Positions 4,260-10,657 of a stretch of 23,543 bases of DNA are shown here, one piece after another. The notes under the pieces are model-generated. The model was not told the origin of the DNA, searched no databases, and saw only the letters and a program-made list of their open reading frames with translations. The stretch spans positions 1-23,543 of the IMG/VR virus record IMGVR_UViG_3300029258_001880, one strand, 5' to 3'. This DNA is from a virus. Both the position numbers and the translations under genes were made by a program. How positions within the stretch are numbered: the first letter of the stretch is position 1; each line of letters begins with the position of its first letter.

Positions 4260-4293
4260 AGAGGGGGGCCCACCGCCAAGCGAGCCCCCCTCT
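4260..4293. terminator. strong GC hairpin in the activator leader; terminator-like on the minus strand
   Basis: AGAGGGGGGC (4260-4269) pairs perfectly with GCCCCCCTCT (4284-4293) around a 14-base loop. Read leftward, the stem is followed by TTCTTTT, like a rho-independent terminator that would stop antisense transcription before the control region. Read rightward no T-run follows, and the hairpin would lie in the 5' leader of the AAA+ gene, where it could affect translation. Which role applies is not decided by sequence. Confidence 0.5.
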
Positions 4294-4330
4294 CCCTGCA
4301 CCATACCCACACCAAACGATGGGTTCGCAC

Positions 4331-5242
4331 ATGATATCAAAAGAGAGCTTCGCGCGCCTCAAGCGCCTGTATTCAGTCGTCCCCATCCTGCTCCTGGGCG
4401 AGCCTGGGGTCGGCAAGACGCACACGGCGCGCGCCCTTTGGGAGGCCAACGGTTGCCCCGGGGGTCGGACGGGTGGCTTCGTCCACGTCAACTGTGCGGC
4501 GATCTCGCCCGAGCTGATCGACAGCGAGCTCTTCGGGCACGTGCGGGGTGCGTTCACCGGCGCGGCATCCTCGCGTCAAGGCTTGGTGCGCGCGGCGGGC
4601 GTCGGCTGCCTGTTCCTCGACGAGGTGGGCGAGCTGCCCACGCACACCCAGGGACGCCTGCTTCGCCTGCTCTCCGAGCGCGAGCTTCGGCCCGTGGGTG
4701 ATGACAAGTCGCACTCGGTGCGGTGCTCGGTGATTGCGGCCACCAACCGAGACCTCAAAGCGGACATGCGCGCCGGTCGATTTCGGGCGGACCTGTTTAG
4801 CAGGTTCGGCGAGGTGGCGACGATACCGCCGCTTCGGGAGTCTGCGGGGGAGATGGATGCACTGGTGCTCGACCGGGGCGCCTTCCTCGACGCGGGAGGG
4901 CGAGCGCTCGTCAAGCGCCAGCCTTGGCGAGACACCAACGTCCGGGGCTTGCTGCAATTCCTCACCAAGCTCGAAAGGCTGGGCGCGCGTACCGAAGCAG
5001 ACGTCGCGCGTGAGCTGGATCTACTCCCCGCCGTCGCCATCCAGGGCCCCTACGATGCGACGGTCGCCGAGGCCGCGAGACGCCTCACGGCAGAGCACGG
5101 TGACGCGGAGGGGTGGTGGCCGATGTCGGAGCTTGCCTCGCTGGTGGGTGCATCCGTCGTGTGGACCCGCAAGCGGCTCGCGGCGGTTCCGGGCGTCGAG
5201 ACGGATGGCAGTGGCAGGGGCAAGGTCTACAGGCTCAAATAA
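4331..5242 (+). CDS. sigma-54-activator-type AAA+ ATPase with C-terminal winged-helix-like domain
   Basis: A 303-residue protein. It has a Walker A motif GEPGVGKT (23-30), the sigma-54-contacting loop GAFTGA (73-78) in the family context ELFGHVRGAFTGA, Walker B CLFLDE (93-98), sensor I AATNRDL (136-142) and arginine-finger context FRADLFSR (151-158). In bacterial enhancer-binding proteins these remodel sigma-54 RNA polymerase using ATP. No N-terminal sensory domain is present, so it would be constitutively active unless controlled by level. The C-terminus (about 255-303) looks like a winged helix rather than the usual Fis-type HTH. The start is uncertain: ATG 4331 or in-frame ATG 4319, neither with a good ribosome site. 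It is the first rightward gene after the divergent control region. No convincing -24/-12 promoter was found in the intergenic regions here. Confidence 0.85.
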   Translation: MISKESFARLKRLYSVVPILLLGEPGVGKTHTARALWEANGCPGGRTGGFVHVNCAAISPELIDSELFGHVRGAFTGAASSRQGLVRAAGVGCLFLDEVGELPTHTQGRLLRLLSERELRPVGDDKSHSVRCSVIAATNRDLKADMRAGRFRADLFSRFGEVATIPPLRESAGEMDALVLDRGAFLDAGGRALVKRQPWRDTNVRGLLQFLTKLERLGARTEADVARELDLLPAVAIQGPYDATVAEAARRLTAEHGDAEGWWPMSELASLVGASVVWTRKRLAAVPGVETDGSGRGKVYRLK

Positions 5243-5256
5243 GCGTATAGGGCGGC

Positions 5257-5302
5257 TTTAGCGATCGTGCGCTATGTCGCTAAATGTGAACAGTGGTTCA
5301 CA
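5257..5302. promoter_or_regulatory. two adjacent inverted repeats upstream of the cassette array
   Basis: TTTAGCGA (5257-5264) and TCGCTAAA (5277-5284) are perfect 8-bp arms around 12 bases. Immediately after, TGTGAAC (5285-5291) and GTTCACA (5296-5302) are perfect 7-bp arms around 4 bases. Both lie in the 78-bp gap before the first array gene, ahead of its AAGGGGG ribosome site. They may be operators or a leader RNA that folds into two hairpins. No convincing sigma-70 promoter is seen beside them. Confidence 0.55.
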
Positions 5303-5320
5303 CTTCAAAGGGGGTAAGTG

Positions 5321-5716
5321 ATGAACGTTGACTCGAGGCGATCGGAGCAAGAGCGCGTGCGATGGATGCGACGGCGGGGCATGGATCCCCATGCGCGATG
5401 CATCGGCGTCGGCGAGGGCAGGTGCCAGGGTATCGATTCACTGGGCGAGTCCCTTGTCGGCAGCGAGCCGTGGTTTGATTCGATGAATGCGTATGGCTTC
5501 AACATGCCGATAAGTGCGATCGCACTCCCGAAGATCGCGCAGGGTCGGTGCGATTATGCGTGGCTGAGGCCCTGGCATCGTCATCGATGTTGGTGCCCCG
5601 AGCTGATTGAGCAGGAAAAGCGCGACCGCGAAGAGCAAGAGGAGATCAACAGGGTGCTTGAGCTGTCGGGCGTCATCACGCGCCTCGGGCCGCGTCGGAG
5701 GTCTGGCAATGAGTGA
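5321..5716 (+). CDS. array protein 0: divergent member of a small Cys/Arg-rich paralogue family
   Basis: A 131-residue protein starting at an ATG preceded by AAGGGGG (6 bases); a GTG one codon upstream is the alternative. The N-terminus SRRSEQERVRWMRRRGMD matches, loosely, the LRRM-PEER-R...RRG pattern of the next three genes and is followed by a similar Cys pair (Cys28 and Cys36). A second Cys cluster (RHRCWCPELI) sits near residue 90, and a charged helix (EQEKRDREEQEEINRV) follows. The paired Cys suggest metal binding, but spacing is not that of a known zinc finger. Its stop codon lies inside the next gene's start (ATGAGTGA). Function unknown. Confidence 0.65.
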   Translation: MNVDSRRSEQERVRWMRRRGMDPHARCIGVGEGRCQGIDSLGESLVGSEPWFDSMNAYGFNMPISAIALPKIAQGRCDYAWLRPWHRHRCWCPELIEQEKRDREEQEEINRVLELSGVITRLGPRRRSGNE

Positions 5717-6149
5717 CCTTCGACGGATGACTCCCGAGGAGCGGGCGCGCCACCTCGCTCGCCGCAACGCCCTGGCGCCTCCTGACGTCGACCTGCCGTT
5801 GCCCGGCGGGCTGTGTGCTGGTCGGCTGAGCCCCGCCCGCTGTGAAGGCGAGCTGCTGTTTCTCGATGAGGATGATCCGAGCCTGAGCGATCTCGAGGCG
5901 TATCACTGGGAACGCCTGGGCGTCTGGTGCAGCTGGGCGCGCCCTGGCCTGAATTGCTGGACAGAGGCCGAGTGGGTGCTCGAACAAGCACGGCGCATCG
6001 AGCGCGAGGTCCGGCGCCTCATGGCCGAGACCGAGGCGCGTCGCGCGCTCAGGATAGGCCCCGAGTCGCTGCGCGAACGTGTCAGGCGCGGCGTGCGCGT
6101 CTCAATCCCAATCACCTCGATCTTCTCAGGAGCATATGACGATGAGTGA
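5709..6149 (+). CDS. array protein 1: MSDLRRM-family small protein
   Basis: A 146-residue protein starting at an ATG with GGAGG 7 bases upstream. It begins MSDLRRMTPEERARHLARR, shared with the two following genes, then a Pro/Leu segment ending GGLC with a second Cys about 8 residues on (ARCEG), an acidic middle, a GVWC...NCW motif near residues 75-85, and a long charged helix (EQARRIEREVRRLMAETEAR) that could dimerise. The first 8 bases overlap the previous gene, and the last 8 are the start of the next gene. No transmembrane segment is visible. The family is not recognised. Position just upstream of the replication gene suggests an early role, by inference. Confidence 0.65.
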   Translation: MSDLRRMTPEERARHLARRNALAPPDVDLPLPGGLCAGRLSPARCEGELLFLDEDDPSLSDLEAYHWERLGVWCSWARPGLNCWTEAEWVLEQARRIEREVRRLMAETEARRALRIGPESLRERVRRGVRVSIPITSIFSGAYDDE

Positions 6150-6579
6150 CCTTCGGCGAATGAGCCCAGAAGAGCGCACGCGAGACCTAGTCCGTCGGGG
6201 CCTCCCCTTGCCGCTGGCCGGCCAGCTGTGCGAGCCGGAGTCTTGCGCCGTTCCTGACCTGCAGCGGTGCCCGTGGCCATTCACAACGTCGTGGTTGCTG
6301 CGCGACGGTTGGGGCGTCTGGGTGTGCCCGGAGCGCCCGCTTCAGCACCCTGACGAAGCGGCGCCGCTGTGTAGACATACGCCCGTTGACCATTACAGCC
6401 GGTCGCCGGGCGGCCGACATGCATATAGCTTGGCTTACGCACGGTATCTGCTGACCATCAAGGGCGAGCGGAGAACGGTGCGACCGTGGTGGGCAGATAG
6501 CTTGGCTTACGCACGGTATCTGCTGACCATCAAGGGCGAGCGGAGAACGGTGCGACCGTGGTGGGCAGATCATGAGTGA
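6142..6579 (+). CDS. array protein 2: MSDLRRM-family protein with a duplicated 24-residue unit
   Basis: A 145-residue protein. I choose the ATG at 6142 over the in-frame ATG at 6136 because AGGAG (6128-6132) is 9 bases from the former but only 3 from the latter, and because 6142 gives the family start MSDLRRMSPEERTRDL. Next comes LPLPLAGQLC with a second Cys five residues on, then GVWVCPERP and another Cys. The C-terminal 50 residues consist of an exact duplication of a 24-residue unit (SLAYARYLLTIKGERR through PWWAD) produced by a 72-bp perfect DNA repeat. The tail HE-stop is encoded by the start of the next gene. Function unknown. Confidence 0.65.
   Translation: MSDLRRMSPEERTRDLVRRGLPLPLAGQLCEPESCAVPDLQRCPWPFTTSWLLRDGWGVWVCPERPLQHPDEAAPLCRHTPVDHYSRSPGGRHAYSLAYARYLLTIKGERRTVRPWWADSLAYARYLLTIKGERRTVRPWWADHE
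6425..6568 (+). repeat. perfect 72-bp tandem duplication inside array gene 2
   Basis: Two exact 72-bp copies (6425-6496 and 6497-6568) lie head to tail, in frame, ending three bases before the next gene's ATG. Identity over the whole unit implies a very recent duplication. It doubles a 24-residue protein segment and also the sequence just upstream of gene 3's start. Confidence 0.95.
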
Positions 6580-6970
6580 CCTCCGACGCATGACCCCCGA
6601 GGCGCGCGCCAGGTACCGCGCTCGCATGGGCCTCCCGCAGCCGCTCGCGGGGGCGCTGTGTGGCAATGGGGGGTGCGCCGCGCACGACCTGGTGACGATG
6701 CCGCTCTCGGGGTGCTGGCCTAGTCTGATAGATGCCGTGCTCGGGCCGACATGGCAGGTGTGCTCTGGCCTGCGCTCGTGGGATGTGGCCTGCCTACCCC
6801 GTTGCCGTCACTGCCCAGGTAGGTGCTGCCCCGACACGGGCGAGCGCAAGAGCCTGCGCGAATATCTGTGCGGCCAGATCACCCTGAATCTCGCATACAG
6901 TAACGACAGTGACGCCAGCCAGTTCTTCAACCAGCTCATTGCTTACCGATTCGGCGCTGACGATGACTGA
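6572..6970 (+). CDS. array protein 3: MSDLRRM-family Cys-rich protein
   Basis: A 132-residue protein beginning MSDLRRMTPEARARYRARMG, then LPQPLAGALC with a second Cys five residues on, as in array protein 2. It is the most Cys-rich member: a QVCSG motif and a cluster CLPRCRHCPGRCC near residues 75-86 look like a metal-binding site, though not a standard zinc-finger spacing. The C-terminus is acidic (FGADDD). The ribosome site is weak (GGTGGG), so translation probably depends on coupling to gene 2 through the 8-bp ATGAGTGA overlap. The end again overlaps a short ATGACTGA start. Function unknown. Confidence 0.65.
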   Translation: MSDLRRMTPEARARYRARMGLPQPLAGALCGNGGCAAHDLVTMPLSGCWPSLIDAVLGPTWQVCSGLRSWDVACLPRCRHCPGRCCPDTGERKSLREYLCGQITLNLAYSNDSDASQFFNQLIAYRFGADDD

Positions 6971-7204: not shown

Positions 7205-9892
7205 ATGACCGACAAACGACCTGTGTTTGATCCCGCAGAGGTGCGCCGTACGCTGCGCACCTTCACGCGTCCTGGCGACGTGTTTGACATTCAGTGCCGC
7301 AGTGTGACGCTCAGGGGATGGAAGCACCCGGGGCTTTACCAGGGCTGGTTTGACGACATCGATGCGGCCATTCGGCAGCTCCAGCGCGTGGTGGCCCACA
7401 AGGGCACGGCGGTACAGTTCAACGCCCACACGCTCAACCCTGAGCTGTTGCACCGCGGCGCCAATGTCCTGGAGCGCGTACAACGGGGCGATGAATCGAC
7501 ATCAGAGGCCGATGTCCAGCGGCGCCGCTGGATCATGGTCGACCTCGACCCGAAGCGGGTGAGCGGGATCAGCTCGAGCGACGAAGAGCTCGAGCTTGCG
7601 GCGGCCAAGGCCCGCGAGATCATCAATCACCTCGCCGATCACAACTTCCCCGCGCCCTTCGTTTGCCGCTCTGGCAACGGAATCCACATCCTTTACGCGT
7701 GCGACCTCGCAAACACCAACGCCGTGCGCGACGTGCTCAAAGATCTGCTCGCCGAGCTGCACGAGCGCTTCGATGACGAGCACGTCGAGGTCGACCGCGG
7801 GGTGTATACGGCAGACACGCGGCTGAAGGTCTACGGCACGATCACCTGCAAGGGCGCCGATAGCGAGGAAAGGCCGCACCGATACTCGCGTATACTGAGC
7901 GGGCCAGCGGAGGTCGAGATAGTCGGGCTCGAAGACCTTGAAGCGTACATCGCGCCGCGCCGCGCGCAGGCCGTGACGCGATCCAAGGCGCGCTGGCGCA
8001 AGCCCATCGATGAGGCTGGCGAGGGGGCGTTTGATCTTGTTCGGGACATCATCGGGCACCCCGACGTGGCCTCGAACATCTTGAAGACGAAGCGCGCGCA
8101 GGGGGGCGACTTCGACACCACGTGGGTGCTCAAGACGTGCCCCGCGTGCCAGGCCAAAAAGAAGGGGATCGCGAGCATTTCGCTGATGGCCTCGGGCGCC
8201 TACACGGCAGCTTGCAAGCGGAGCAGCTGCACCCTGGACGGCGACTGGATACGCGACCGCTACGCGCCCCGATCCTACTCCCGCGCGTCAAATCATCCGG
8301 CCCTCCGCGGGGTGGGTAATGGCGAGCGACGCGAAGAGCGGCCGAGCGGGCCCCCGGTCGCCGACGTGCCCGAGGACTCGAGCACCGAGCAGCTTGAGGC
8401 GATGAGCCAAGAGAGGCGGCAGCGCGAGCAGGCACGGTGGACCGAGAGGCCCACTCAGCTGCAGGTCGCAGAGCGCGTGCTACGGGAGATTGATGGCGCG
8501 GGGACTGGCGTCGTGTTCGACGAGGGCGGCCTGTGGCGATACCACGCCGGCGCGGGATGCTGGCGCCAGGTCAGCGATGACGCGTTCAAGCGCGTCATTC
8601 TCAAGTGGGACCGCGAAGAGTGCGGAAGCGGTCGCGGGGGGAGGCCAGAGCGATTTGAGGCGAGCGTCCAGATATGCCGAGACGCCCTCAAGACCGCGCA
8701 CACGCTCACCGGGCACCCCGGATTCTTTGAGCGCGAAAGGCGCGGTTTTGCGGTGCGCGGGAGCTTCATCCACGCCGATGTTGAGTCGGGCGAGGTGTAC
8801 GTGATCGACGGCTCGCACGAGCACCGCGCCCGAGCTGCAATCGATTGCGAGTACGTGCCATGGCCGAAGGGTGAAGAGGAGCCCGACCCACGGCTCAAGA
8901 TGGACCTGTTGAGCCAGTACCTGTCGACCGTTCATGGCTCGGCGGCGCCGGAGTACCCAGAGGACGCCACCGACGCGCAGAAGGTCGCGGAGGATGAGCG
9001 CGTCAAGGACGTCAAGGCGAAGATCCGCCTGATGGGCGAGGTGATCTTCAGCGCGCTGTGCGGGCTCGGGCCCTACTACAACAAGGCGTTTCTGGCTTAC
9101 GGGCCCCAGGGCACCGGCAAGTCGCAGTGGCTCGCGATGCTTTCGCACCTGATCCCCGAAGAGGTGCAGGCGCACATCCAGCCGCACTCGATCGGCCAGG
9201 AATATTACGCCGCAAAGCTCGCCGGTAAGCGGCTGAACGTGGTCACCGAGTGCGACGAGGGCTCGGTCATGAAAGAAGCCGGTTTCAAGGCGGTCGTTTC
9301 CGGCGAGCCGATCAGCGCGCGCCACATCAGAGACAGCGTCTTCGACTTCCGCCCCGTCGCCTTGCACCTCTTCGCAGGCAACTCACTCCCACCCGCACCG
9401 GGCGCGACTGACGCCATGTGGATCAGGTGGCTGCCGGTCGGTTTCACGCATCGCTTCAGGGGCACTGGCAAGCAGGTCAAAGACATCGGGCGCAAGATCG
9501 CCACCCGAGAGACCGAGGCGCTCGTCTCGTGGGCTATCGAGTGCGGCAAGGGGCTGCTCGCGCGGGGGTCGTACACGATACCGCCGAGCACCGAGGCGCT
9601 CTTCGCTGAATGGCGCATCGCAAGCGACAACGTCGCCGTGTGGCTGGACTCCGCCGAAGGGGTCAGTGTGGGCAACGAGGACGCCCGCTCGGCGTGGCCC
9701 AAGGCGTCGGTTTGTTACAAGCGTTACCGTGAATGGTGCAGTGATAACGGATTCCGCCCCGTCAACTCGCGCACTTTCACCAGGCGCCTGCTGTCGATCG
9801 AGCCGCCGCCAGGTGGCACCCCGGTTGAGATCGCCGCGAAGGTCGCTGGATATCGCCGCATCAATCTCGTGATGCCCGAGTTCGCGCTCTGA
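7205..9892 (+). CDS. primase-polymerase / SF3 helicase replication protein
   Basis: An 895-residue protein. The N-terminal part has archaeo-eukaryotic primase motifs: DLD (113-115) in WIMVDLDPKR, the SGNGIHILY motif (156-164) with His161, and KVYGTITCKG (208-217). A Cys4 zinc-binding site follows (Cys312, 315, 337, 342). The C-terminal third is a superfamily 3 helicase: Walker A GPQGTGKS (633-640), Walker B LNVVTECDE (677-685), motif C LFAGNSLP (722-729) and a downstream Arg (741 or 750) as finger candidate. Such fusions prime and unwind phage or plasmid DNA at the origin. The start is set by AGAGGA just upstream. The neighbouring G-run inverted repeat is the obvious candidate substrate. Family assignment is firm; origin recognition is inferred. 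Confidence 0.93.
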   Translation: MTDKRPVFDPAEVRRTLRTFTRPGDVFDIQCRSVTLRGWKHPGLYQGWFDDIDAAIRQLQRVVAHKGTAVQFNAHTLNPELLHRGANVLERVQRGDESTSEADVQRRRWIMVDLDPKRVSGISSSDEELELAAAKAREIINHLADHNFPAPFVCRSGNGIHILYACDLANTNAVRDVLKDLLAELHERFDDEHVEVDRGVYTADTRLKVYGTITCKGADSEERPHRYSRILSGPAEVEIVGLEDLEAYIAPRRAQAVTRSKARWRKPIDEAGEGAFDLVRDIIGHPDVASNILKTKRAQGGDFDTTWVLKTCPACQAKKKGIASISLMASGAYTAACKRSSCTLDGDWIRDRYAPRSYSRASNHPALRGVGNGERREERPSGPPVADVPEDSSTEQLEAMSQERRQREQARWTERPTQLQVAERVLREIDGAGTGVVFDEGGLWRYHAGAGCWRQVSDDAFKRVILKWDREECGSGRGGRPERFEASVQICRDALKTAHTLTGHPGFFERERRGFAVRGSFIHADVESGEVYVIDGSHEHRARAAIDCEYVPWPKGEEEPDPRLKMDLLSQYLSTVHGSAAPEYPEDATDAQKVAEDERVKDVKAKIRLMGEVIFSALCGLGPYYNKAFLAYGPQGTGKSQWLAMLSHLIPEEVQAHIQPHSIGQEYYAAKLAGKRLNVVTECDEGSVMKEAGFKAVVSGEPISARHIRDSVFDFRPVALHLFAGNSLPPAPGATDAMWIRWLPVGFTHRFRGTGKQVKDIGRKIATRETEALVSWAIECGKGLLARGSYTIPPSTEALFAEWRIASDNVAVWLDSAEGVSVGNEDARSAWPKASVCYKRYREWCSDNGFRPVNSRTFTRRLLSIEPPPGGTPVEIAAKVAGYRRINLVMPEFAL

Positions 9893-9915
9893 GCTTCGGC
9901 GCGGTCGGTTCTGAT

Positions 9916-9950
9916 GGGCGCTTCCGGGCAGGTCTCGGTGGGCGCCCTTT
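9916..9950 (+). terminator. candidate terminator after the primase-helicase gene
   Basis: GGGCGC (9916-9921) and GCGCCC (9942-9947) can pair around a 20-base loop and are followed by TTTGCGGTTCTT. Stem and T-run are both modest, so this is a tentative call. Confidence 0.35.
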
Positions 9951-9993
9951 GCGGTTCTTGACGCGAGGGGGAGTGATACGTGCGTTCGCCGCT

Positions 9994-10236
9994 GGGGAGT
10001 CTCTGGGGAGTCTTTGGGGGGTTATTTGGGGAATGCAGGTTGTTGATATTTAACCGTTTGGGGAGGTTGGGGAGGTAAATGTCTTCATAGTACCGCAGCG
10101 CGCCACGCATACATCGTGCACATGTATTTTCTTGATTCAAAACTACCTCCCCAACCTCCCCAAACCCAATGATTACAAGCACCTGCATTCCCCAAAACTT
10201 CCCCAAGAACTCCCCCAGAAGTTCCCCAGAACCCCC
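9994..10236. other. candidate replication origin: inverted repeat with helically phased G4/C4 runs
   Basis: This fills most of the 363-bp non-coding gap after the primase-helicase gene. Perfect 22-bp arms lie at 10056-10077 and 10144-10165. Outside them, at equal distance, a 16-bp match pairs 10025-10040 with 10181-10196, giving aligned 53-bp arms with about 43 matches. Further out, G-runs start at 9994, 10005, 10016 and 10028 on the left. C-runs on the right start at 10190, 10201, 10212, 10224 and 10232. Most spacings are 11-12 bp, about one helical turn. The left G-runs also fit a G-quadruplex pattern. The 66-bp centre is AT-richer and holds the palindrome ATACAT-N7-ATGTAT (10109-10127). 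Iterons beside a replicase suggest an origin; a transcriptional control site is the alternative. Confidence 0.6.
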
Positions 10237-10255
10237 ACTCTCAAAGGTGAGACCA

Positions 10256-10657
10256 ATGAATGATACTGTGCAACTGACACTGCAACACTTCTCGATGGAC
10301 CTGCCCCGGGTGCTCATCACCGGCTCGCGTCAATACAAGCGCACCGCTCGCGTGCAAGAATGGGTCTCATGCTTCGCCAAGCCGTTCATGCTGGTGGGAA
10401 GTCGCAGGGCTGGCGTCGAGGTGGCTGCGGAGCGTGCTGCGCGCGTCCGGGGGGCGCAGGTGCTCGTGTACCAGGAATGCGATCGGTGGCAGGTGTGGGA
10501 TGCTGCGGATCGGATCGTGGTTTTCTGGGATGAGGTGGACCGCGACGGGCTCGGGATGATCAGGGAGGCCGCGCGGCTGTCGAAGCTGTGGCTGGCTTAC
10601 GGGGCGTCAGGGCACCGAATCAGCAGGCAACGCATCGCTGAACTGGTGGGCGGGTAG
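10256..10657 (+). CDS. SLOG-superfamily (DprA/YspA-like) nucleotide-binding protein
   Basis: A 133-residue protein. Residues 18-25 (RVLITGSR) are the first Rossmann strand and Gly/Ser-rich loop typical of small SLOG proteins (YspA/DUF2493-like). A second Gly-Ser-Arg (VGSRRAGVEV) and then ADRIVVFWDEVDRDGLGM match the later strand and ligand loop. SLOG proteins bind nucleotides or nucleotide-derived ligands; some sense signals in anti-phage systems, others sit in phages with unknown role. The start follows AAGGTGAG at good spacing, directly after the origin-like repeat. The last 61 bases overlap a convergent leftward gene. The superfamily call is from pattern, and the ligand is unknown. Confidence 0.65.
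   Translation: MNDTVQLTLQHFSMDLPRVLITGSRQYKRTARVQEWVSCFAKPFMLVGSRRAGVEVAAERAARVRGAQVLVYQECDRWQVWDAADRIVVFWDEVDRDGLGMIREAARLSKLWLAYGASGHRISRQRIAELVGG

Follow-up and report, generated by a model that had tools for sequence, protein, structure and literature searches.

Genes and features of the locus

The window, by which we mean the whole stretch of DNA analyzed, is a 23,543-base IMG/VR virus record and probably represents a fragment of a tailed phage. Its terminase, portal, protease, major head and tail-connector genes rule out that the contig is a phage-inducible chromosomal island (PICI). Profile and structure matches identify a replicase gene whose 895-residue product combines a PrimPol-like N-terminal part with an SF3 helicase of the D5/P4 family. 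The protein matches DUF5906 (3.5e-10) and Pox_D5 (2.2e-4) in Pfam and DNA primase in PHROG (6.6e-37); TIGR01613 gives a domain value of 6e-29 and, at 100.9 bits, falls slightly below its cut-off of 108.7. The C-terminal 305 residues were modelled with AlphaFold (mean pLDDT 82), and the best Foldseek match of this part is the SaPI5 primase-helicase (7OLA, E 2.5e-12), the other top PDB matches being primase-helicases of ASFV and poxviruses. At the C-terminus there is a candidate winged-helix domain of the Pox_D5 type. Three sets of peptides retrieved no close relatives of the replicase from IMG/VR.

Several other genes of the contig deserve mention. A sigma-54-activator-type AAA+ ATPase (4346-5242; Pfam 1.7e-48) is encoded upstream of the replicase, and a protein with a sigma-70 region 4 match and a helix-turn-helix domain is encoded on the minus strand (1185-2102). 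Three consecutive small ORFs (5607-6970) share the start MSDLRRM[TS]PEERxR, making up a gene family in three copies, of which the second (6079-6579) contains a tandem duplication of ADSLAYARYLLTIKGERRTVRPWW.

Between the replicase stop codon and the next plausible ORF, the DNA is non-coding as judged from context; mechanically called ORFs do cross it. This stretch is occupied by a long inverted repeat that begins at 9992, just 3' of the stop at 9892. The features of the locus are as follows.

7205..9892, plus strand: replicase, PrimPol-like N-terminal part and D5/P4-family SF3 helicase (DUF5906)
9993..10032, plus strand: left outer array, four TGGGG-type units 11, 11 and 12 bp apart
10025..10040, plus strand: left copy of a second 16-bp inverted match, TTTGGGGAATGCAGGT (mate at 10181-10196)
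10056..10077, plus strand: left inner arm, two TTGGGGAGG iterons with a 9-bp step, GGGAGGT at 10061 and 10070
10078..10143, no strand: core, 66 bp, 44% GC, of a length that fits the relatives; probable melting/loading region
10115..10127, no strand: alternating purine-pyrimidine tract CGTGCACATGTAT, 13 nt, inside the core
10144..10165, minus strand: right inner arm, mirror of 10056-10077
10181..10196, minus strand: right copy of the 16-bp match
10190..10236, minus strand: right outer array, C-runs at 10190, 10201, 10212, 10224 and 10232
10256..10657, plus strand: next downstream ORF, without a family match, which bounds the non-coding stretch

Anatomy of the inverted repeat

A repeat finder delimits an imperfect inverted repeat with arms of 86 nt (9992-10077 and 10144-10229), 73% complementary and 66 nt apart. 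Within it the inner arms are perfect over 22 bp; moving outward from either arm, 15 bp separate it from the second 16-bp match. No longer perfect inverted repeat was found in the contig (the best other 364-nt window reaches 13 bp), and 300 mononucleotide shuffles of the intergenic stretch yielded perfect inverted repeats of at most 13 bp. Folded as single-stranded DNA, the repeat gives z values of -9.8 and -9.7, none of 200 shuffles being as stable. The arms and the second match described by the first-pass annotation are thus real, and its description of the segment as non-coding, AT-richer in the center (against about 65% GC for the contig) and adjacent to a primase-helicase gene holds as well. 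A search of Rfam with the repeat and a literature search for its letters both returned no match.

The repeat is built of TGGGGAGGT and TGGGGA-type units. Successive G-runs of the left arm start 11, 11, 12, 32 and 9 bp apart, and the C-runs of the right arm 9, 32, 11, 11, 12 and 8 bp apart. From a spacing of mostly 11-12 bp, the runs had been proposed to lie on one face of the helix. That spacing is confined to the outer arrays, the step between the inner units being 9 bp. Moreover, phasing at about 10.5 bp is not kept in the relatives described below, in which a 9-bp step separates 103 of 160 same-strand neighboring units, so helical phasing has to be abandoned as a principle of the element.

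Recurrence of the mirrored arrays

To look for the layout elsewhere, 2.9 million IMG/VR contigs were scanned with a DNA-only pattern, GGGAGGNNNGGGAGGN{48,78}CCTCCCNNNCCTCCC, which specifies 24 bases: two GGGAGG motifs 9 bp apart, a core of 48-78 bp, and the mirror image. This inverted pattern matched 36 contigs, four of them previously known; the non-redundant set comprises 29 repeats, including that of the window, with cores of 50-77 bp. In every contig with enough flank (32/32), the 3' end of a large ORF faces the repeat. Four loci (L084, L094, L095 and L102) have too little flank to be judged, and L099 duplicates L085. When 33 neighboring proteins, that of the window included, were scanned, 26 matched the P4-family primase model and six proved to be replicases of the phrog_10537 type. 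The only neighbor matching neither model is the second ORF flanking L109, the other neighbor of this repeat being a D5 replicase. The phrog_10537-type loci with a mirrored GGGAGG array are L051, L055, L082, L085, L098 and L100; in several of them the ORF runs through the repeat. Comparison did not demonstrate homology of the D5 helicases to the helicase of this type.

Other searches gave a consistent picture. An exact 20-base piece of the repeat matched one unrelated contig, which carries the whole mirrored layout. A tandem GGGAGGTNN pattern gave 26 matches, and the clearly inverted ones examined, together with one from an inverted pattern, adjoin primase-helicase genes; matches in coding sequence (for example L004, L016, L019, L020 and L021) are not inverted and were set aside. 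BLAST of the repeat against phages and plasmids returned only chance-like or half-site matches. Caulobacter phage DMCA has a single half-site, ACTACCTCCCCAACCTCCCCA, in a gap between two structural-region genes (L030, 6001-6021); the annotation shows no replicase in the surrounding 12 kb. Among 150 Gemmatimonadota genomes, a stricter pattern was found in the seed genome and in none of the other 149. The seed genome, a Gemmatimonadetes MAG (G005, locus L029), has at least 13 GGGAGGTNNGGGAGGT arrays dispersed genome-wide, which are perhaps a separate chromosomal repeat family.

The array does not accompany every replicase of this kind. Among the phages with D5 primases that were sampled, roughly half have no comparable array by a k-mer score. 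In Lumi, fJoAci04 and Achromobacter 2-1, which encode distant relatives of the window's replicase, the DNA directly downstream of the gene contains no mirrored GGGAGG array; in Lumi, G-runs at intervals of about 12 bp form a one-sided array at this place.

Iterons of different sequence can make up the same layout. Acidithiobacillus phage AcaML1 carries mirrored TCTGACGGG iterons, again downstream of a replicase of this kind, around a core with a 20-nt alternating tract. Microcystis phage Mae-JY28 and a plasmid of Methylobacterium currus have the layout downstream of the replicase with GGAAGGATG and CCCTCGAAA, respectively. The gene table of the plasmid, which is incomplete, lists ParA and a P4-family primase and no other replication gene. 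Listeria B025 has a same-layout element with the iteron AACTATCCACC. In the 8.5-kb plasmid of Thermaerobacter sp. FW80 (L112, 2798-2903), mirrored GTGAAC arrays with a 9-bp step, their unit closely resembling the P4 iteron, lie upstream of a P4-family primase.

Common ancestry of all copies of the GGGAGG array is not supported: the trait is scattered over the D5 tree and requires nine Fitch changes. By our own estimate, GGGAGG would occur, in some register and on either strand, in about 0.4% of random 9-bp iterons, so that convergent cases, too, are to be expected from a scan of 2.9 million contigs. The simplest explanation for the motif being shared by scattered replicases, and by a second replicase type, is convergence under ascertainment; exchange of a module is the more interesting one.

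Alternating purine-pyrimidine tracts in the cores

Alternating purine-pyrimidine tracts are prone to adopt the Z-DNA form. Tracts of 18-30 nt lie in the cores of eight loci (L079, L081, L082, L085, L087, L088, L089 and L051), and the longest alternating run averages 13.2 nt over the cores compared with 6.4 in mononucleotide shuffles. The 13-nt tract of the window is unusual against mononucleotide shuffles (p 0.004-0.006) but not against dinucleotide shuffles (p 0.096).

Discussion

A close parallel to the element is found in phage P4. In the P4 record, crr (4291-4590), annotated as required in cis for replication, directly follows the alpha gene (4636-6969, minus strand), and its type 1 repeats recur with a 9-bp step in both orientations. 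Both thus have short iterons in two orientations with a 9-bp step, placed just after the 3' end of primase-helicase genes that belong to one family. P4 differs in its iteron, GGTGAACA instead of GGGAGG; its crr is made up of a 120-bp unit present twice, the inverted pairs are separated by about 35 bp, and there is no core of alternating purines and pyrimidines. The P4 iteron is not found here, which excludes P4 itself only, the iterons of members being different. P4 has, in addition, a separate annotated origin (9086-9809). As to the cognate replicase, the PHROG primase, DUF5906, TIGR01613 and 7OLA matches all place the protein of the window in the P4/D5/SaPI family, and the position immediately 3' of the replicase gene, typical of crr and of PICI origins, is that of the repeat in the window and of all the relatives with flank.

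The element also resembles the origins of PICIs, which lie immediately 3' of rep and consist of two sets of iterons flanking an AT-rich region; for EcCICFT073, a pri-rep-ori segment was shown to maintain a plasmid (PMC6092414). Here, too, two mirrored iteron sets surround an AT-richer core 3' of the replicase gene, and the modelled part of the replicase is closest to the SaPI5 primase-helicase. The difference is that the window is a 23.5-kb tailed-phage fragment and not a satellite; the likeness is one of layout. A third point of comparison is the pRN1 family; in pRN1 itself the PrimPol-SF3 replicase gene is followed by a stem-loop that is essential and must be intact, no specific Rep binding having been seen and the plasmid being stated to have no iteron structure (PMC4234260). 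An origin has been proposed for phages BPP-1/BIP-1 in the same work (PMC4234260). These replicons have in common with the window a PrimPol-SF3 helicase replicase and a large inverted repeat directly downstream of its gene. BPP-1 differs in having only an imperfect 23-bp inverted repeat (78%) without tandem units. We rejected a pRN1-type stem-loop origin for the window: a stem-loop can form (z -9.8) but consists of iterons.

What the data establish is the anatomy of the element, the fact that it recurs, its constant position and orientation with respect to replicases of this family, and the layout in common with P4 crr. On the strength of the parallels with P4 crr, the PICI origins and the pRN1 stem-loop, we infer, with a probability of about 80%, that the element (approximately 9992-10237) is the cis-acting initiation site, an origin or a crr-like cis-required region bound by the replicase, for the primase-helicase whose gene lies immediately before it. 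This protein would bind the G-rich units, as iterons, most likely through its C-terminal winged-helix domain. The two head-to-head arrays would load two SF3 hexamers, one on each side of the 66-bp core; the AT-richer, partly alternating core would be melted and primed by the primase domain, and replication would proceed in both directions. The suggestion of the first-pass annotation that a replication origin lies beside the replicase gene is thus supported by the 32 loci, by P4 crr and by the PICI origins tested experimentally (PMC6092414); the idea of a new origin type was overstated, the kind being known from P4 crr and the PICI origins. Because the annotated origin of P4 is separate from crr, the word "origin" in its strict sense may prove wrong. 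GC skew, proposed initially as a check, shows no switch at the locus in the contig (0.045 / 0.042). The average shift for 24 loci is small, +0.024 (s.e. 0.009), and has the sign that forks moving outward would produce.

An unlikely alternative is that the repeat controls transcription of the replicase operon as its operator or terminator. It does follow the stop codon closely and could form a long hairpin, two terminator-like sites were reported in the region, and a terminator is annotated in P4 between alpha and crr. However, no promoter-like site is present in 9700-10500, the terminator-like sites are near shuffle level, and an operator is usually found in front of the gene under its control. 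A terminator has no need for tandem 9-bp units mirrored at 50-77 bp and conserved over divergent replicases.

Still less probable is an element in which a DNA structure, a G-quadruplex or a cruciform, is recognized instead of the iteron sequence. Both arms of the window satisfy a four-tract G-quadruplex pattern, as originally pointed out, and fold strongly; the dependence of pRN1 on an intact stem-loop without observed specific Rep binding would provide a precedent. As a general principle, however, G-quadruplex formation fails: both arms are compatible with it in only 12 of the 29 loci, and the iterons of P4 (GGTGAACA) and Listeria B025 cannot form such a structure in elements of the same layout. 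Finally, a partition (parS-like), packaging or attachment site placed next to the replicase by chance seems hardly credible, for while inverted repeat arrays are known in such sites too, and a ParB-like protein is encoded two genes away in one related contig, the constant neighbor across unrelated phages is the 3' end of the replicase gene and not a partition, terminase or integrase gene.

Returning to an initiation site served by the adjacent replicase, what is new here is the occurrence of the layout in full-size phages, with long alternating purine-pyrimidine tracts in many cores, and probably its occurrence in a plasmid, that of M. currus. Full-size phages or plasmids having this layout with GGGAGG iterons and alternating cores are undescribed in the literature searched, most subscription journals lying outside it. 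The presence of the layout in phages contradicts the published statement that PICIs are the only known bacterial replicons to have it (PMC6092414). One could go further and envision a modular, as yet unreported class of tailed-phage origins, consisting of mirrored 9-bp GGGAGG arrays and a 50-77 bp core in which a Z-DNA-prone tract of up to 30 nt would act as a superhelix-driven opener. The same cassette would serve two helicase types, with recognition either exchanged as a module or made outside the SF3 core. We regard this extension as speculative and rather doubtful. The long alternating cores do raise the question of how SF3 helicases open GC-rich origins.

To our knowledge, few phages with D5/P4-type primases have had their origins mapped. 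If the proposed role of the element is correct, the specificity of replicases for their iterons becomes testable, and a simple rule, namely to look for mirrored 9-bp iterons 3' of the primase-helicase gene, would locate the origins of many phages and prophages and of some plasmids.
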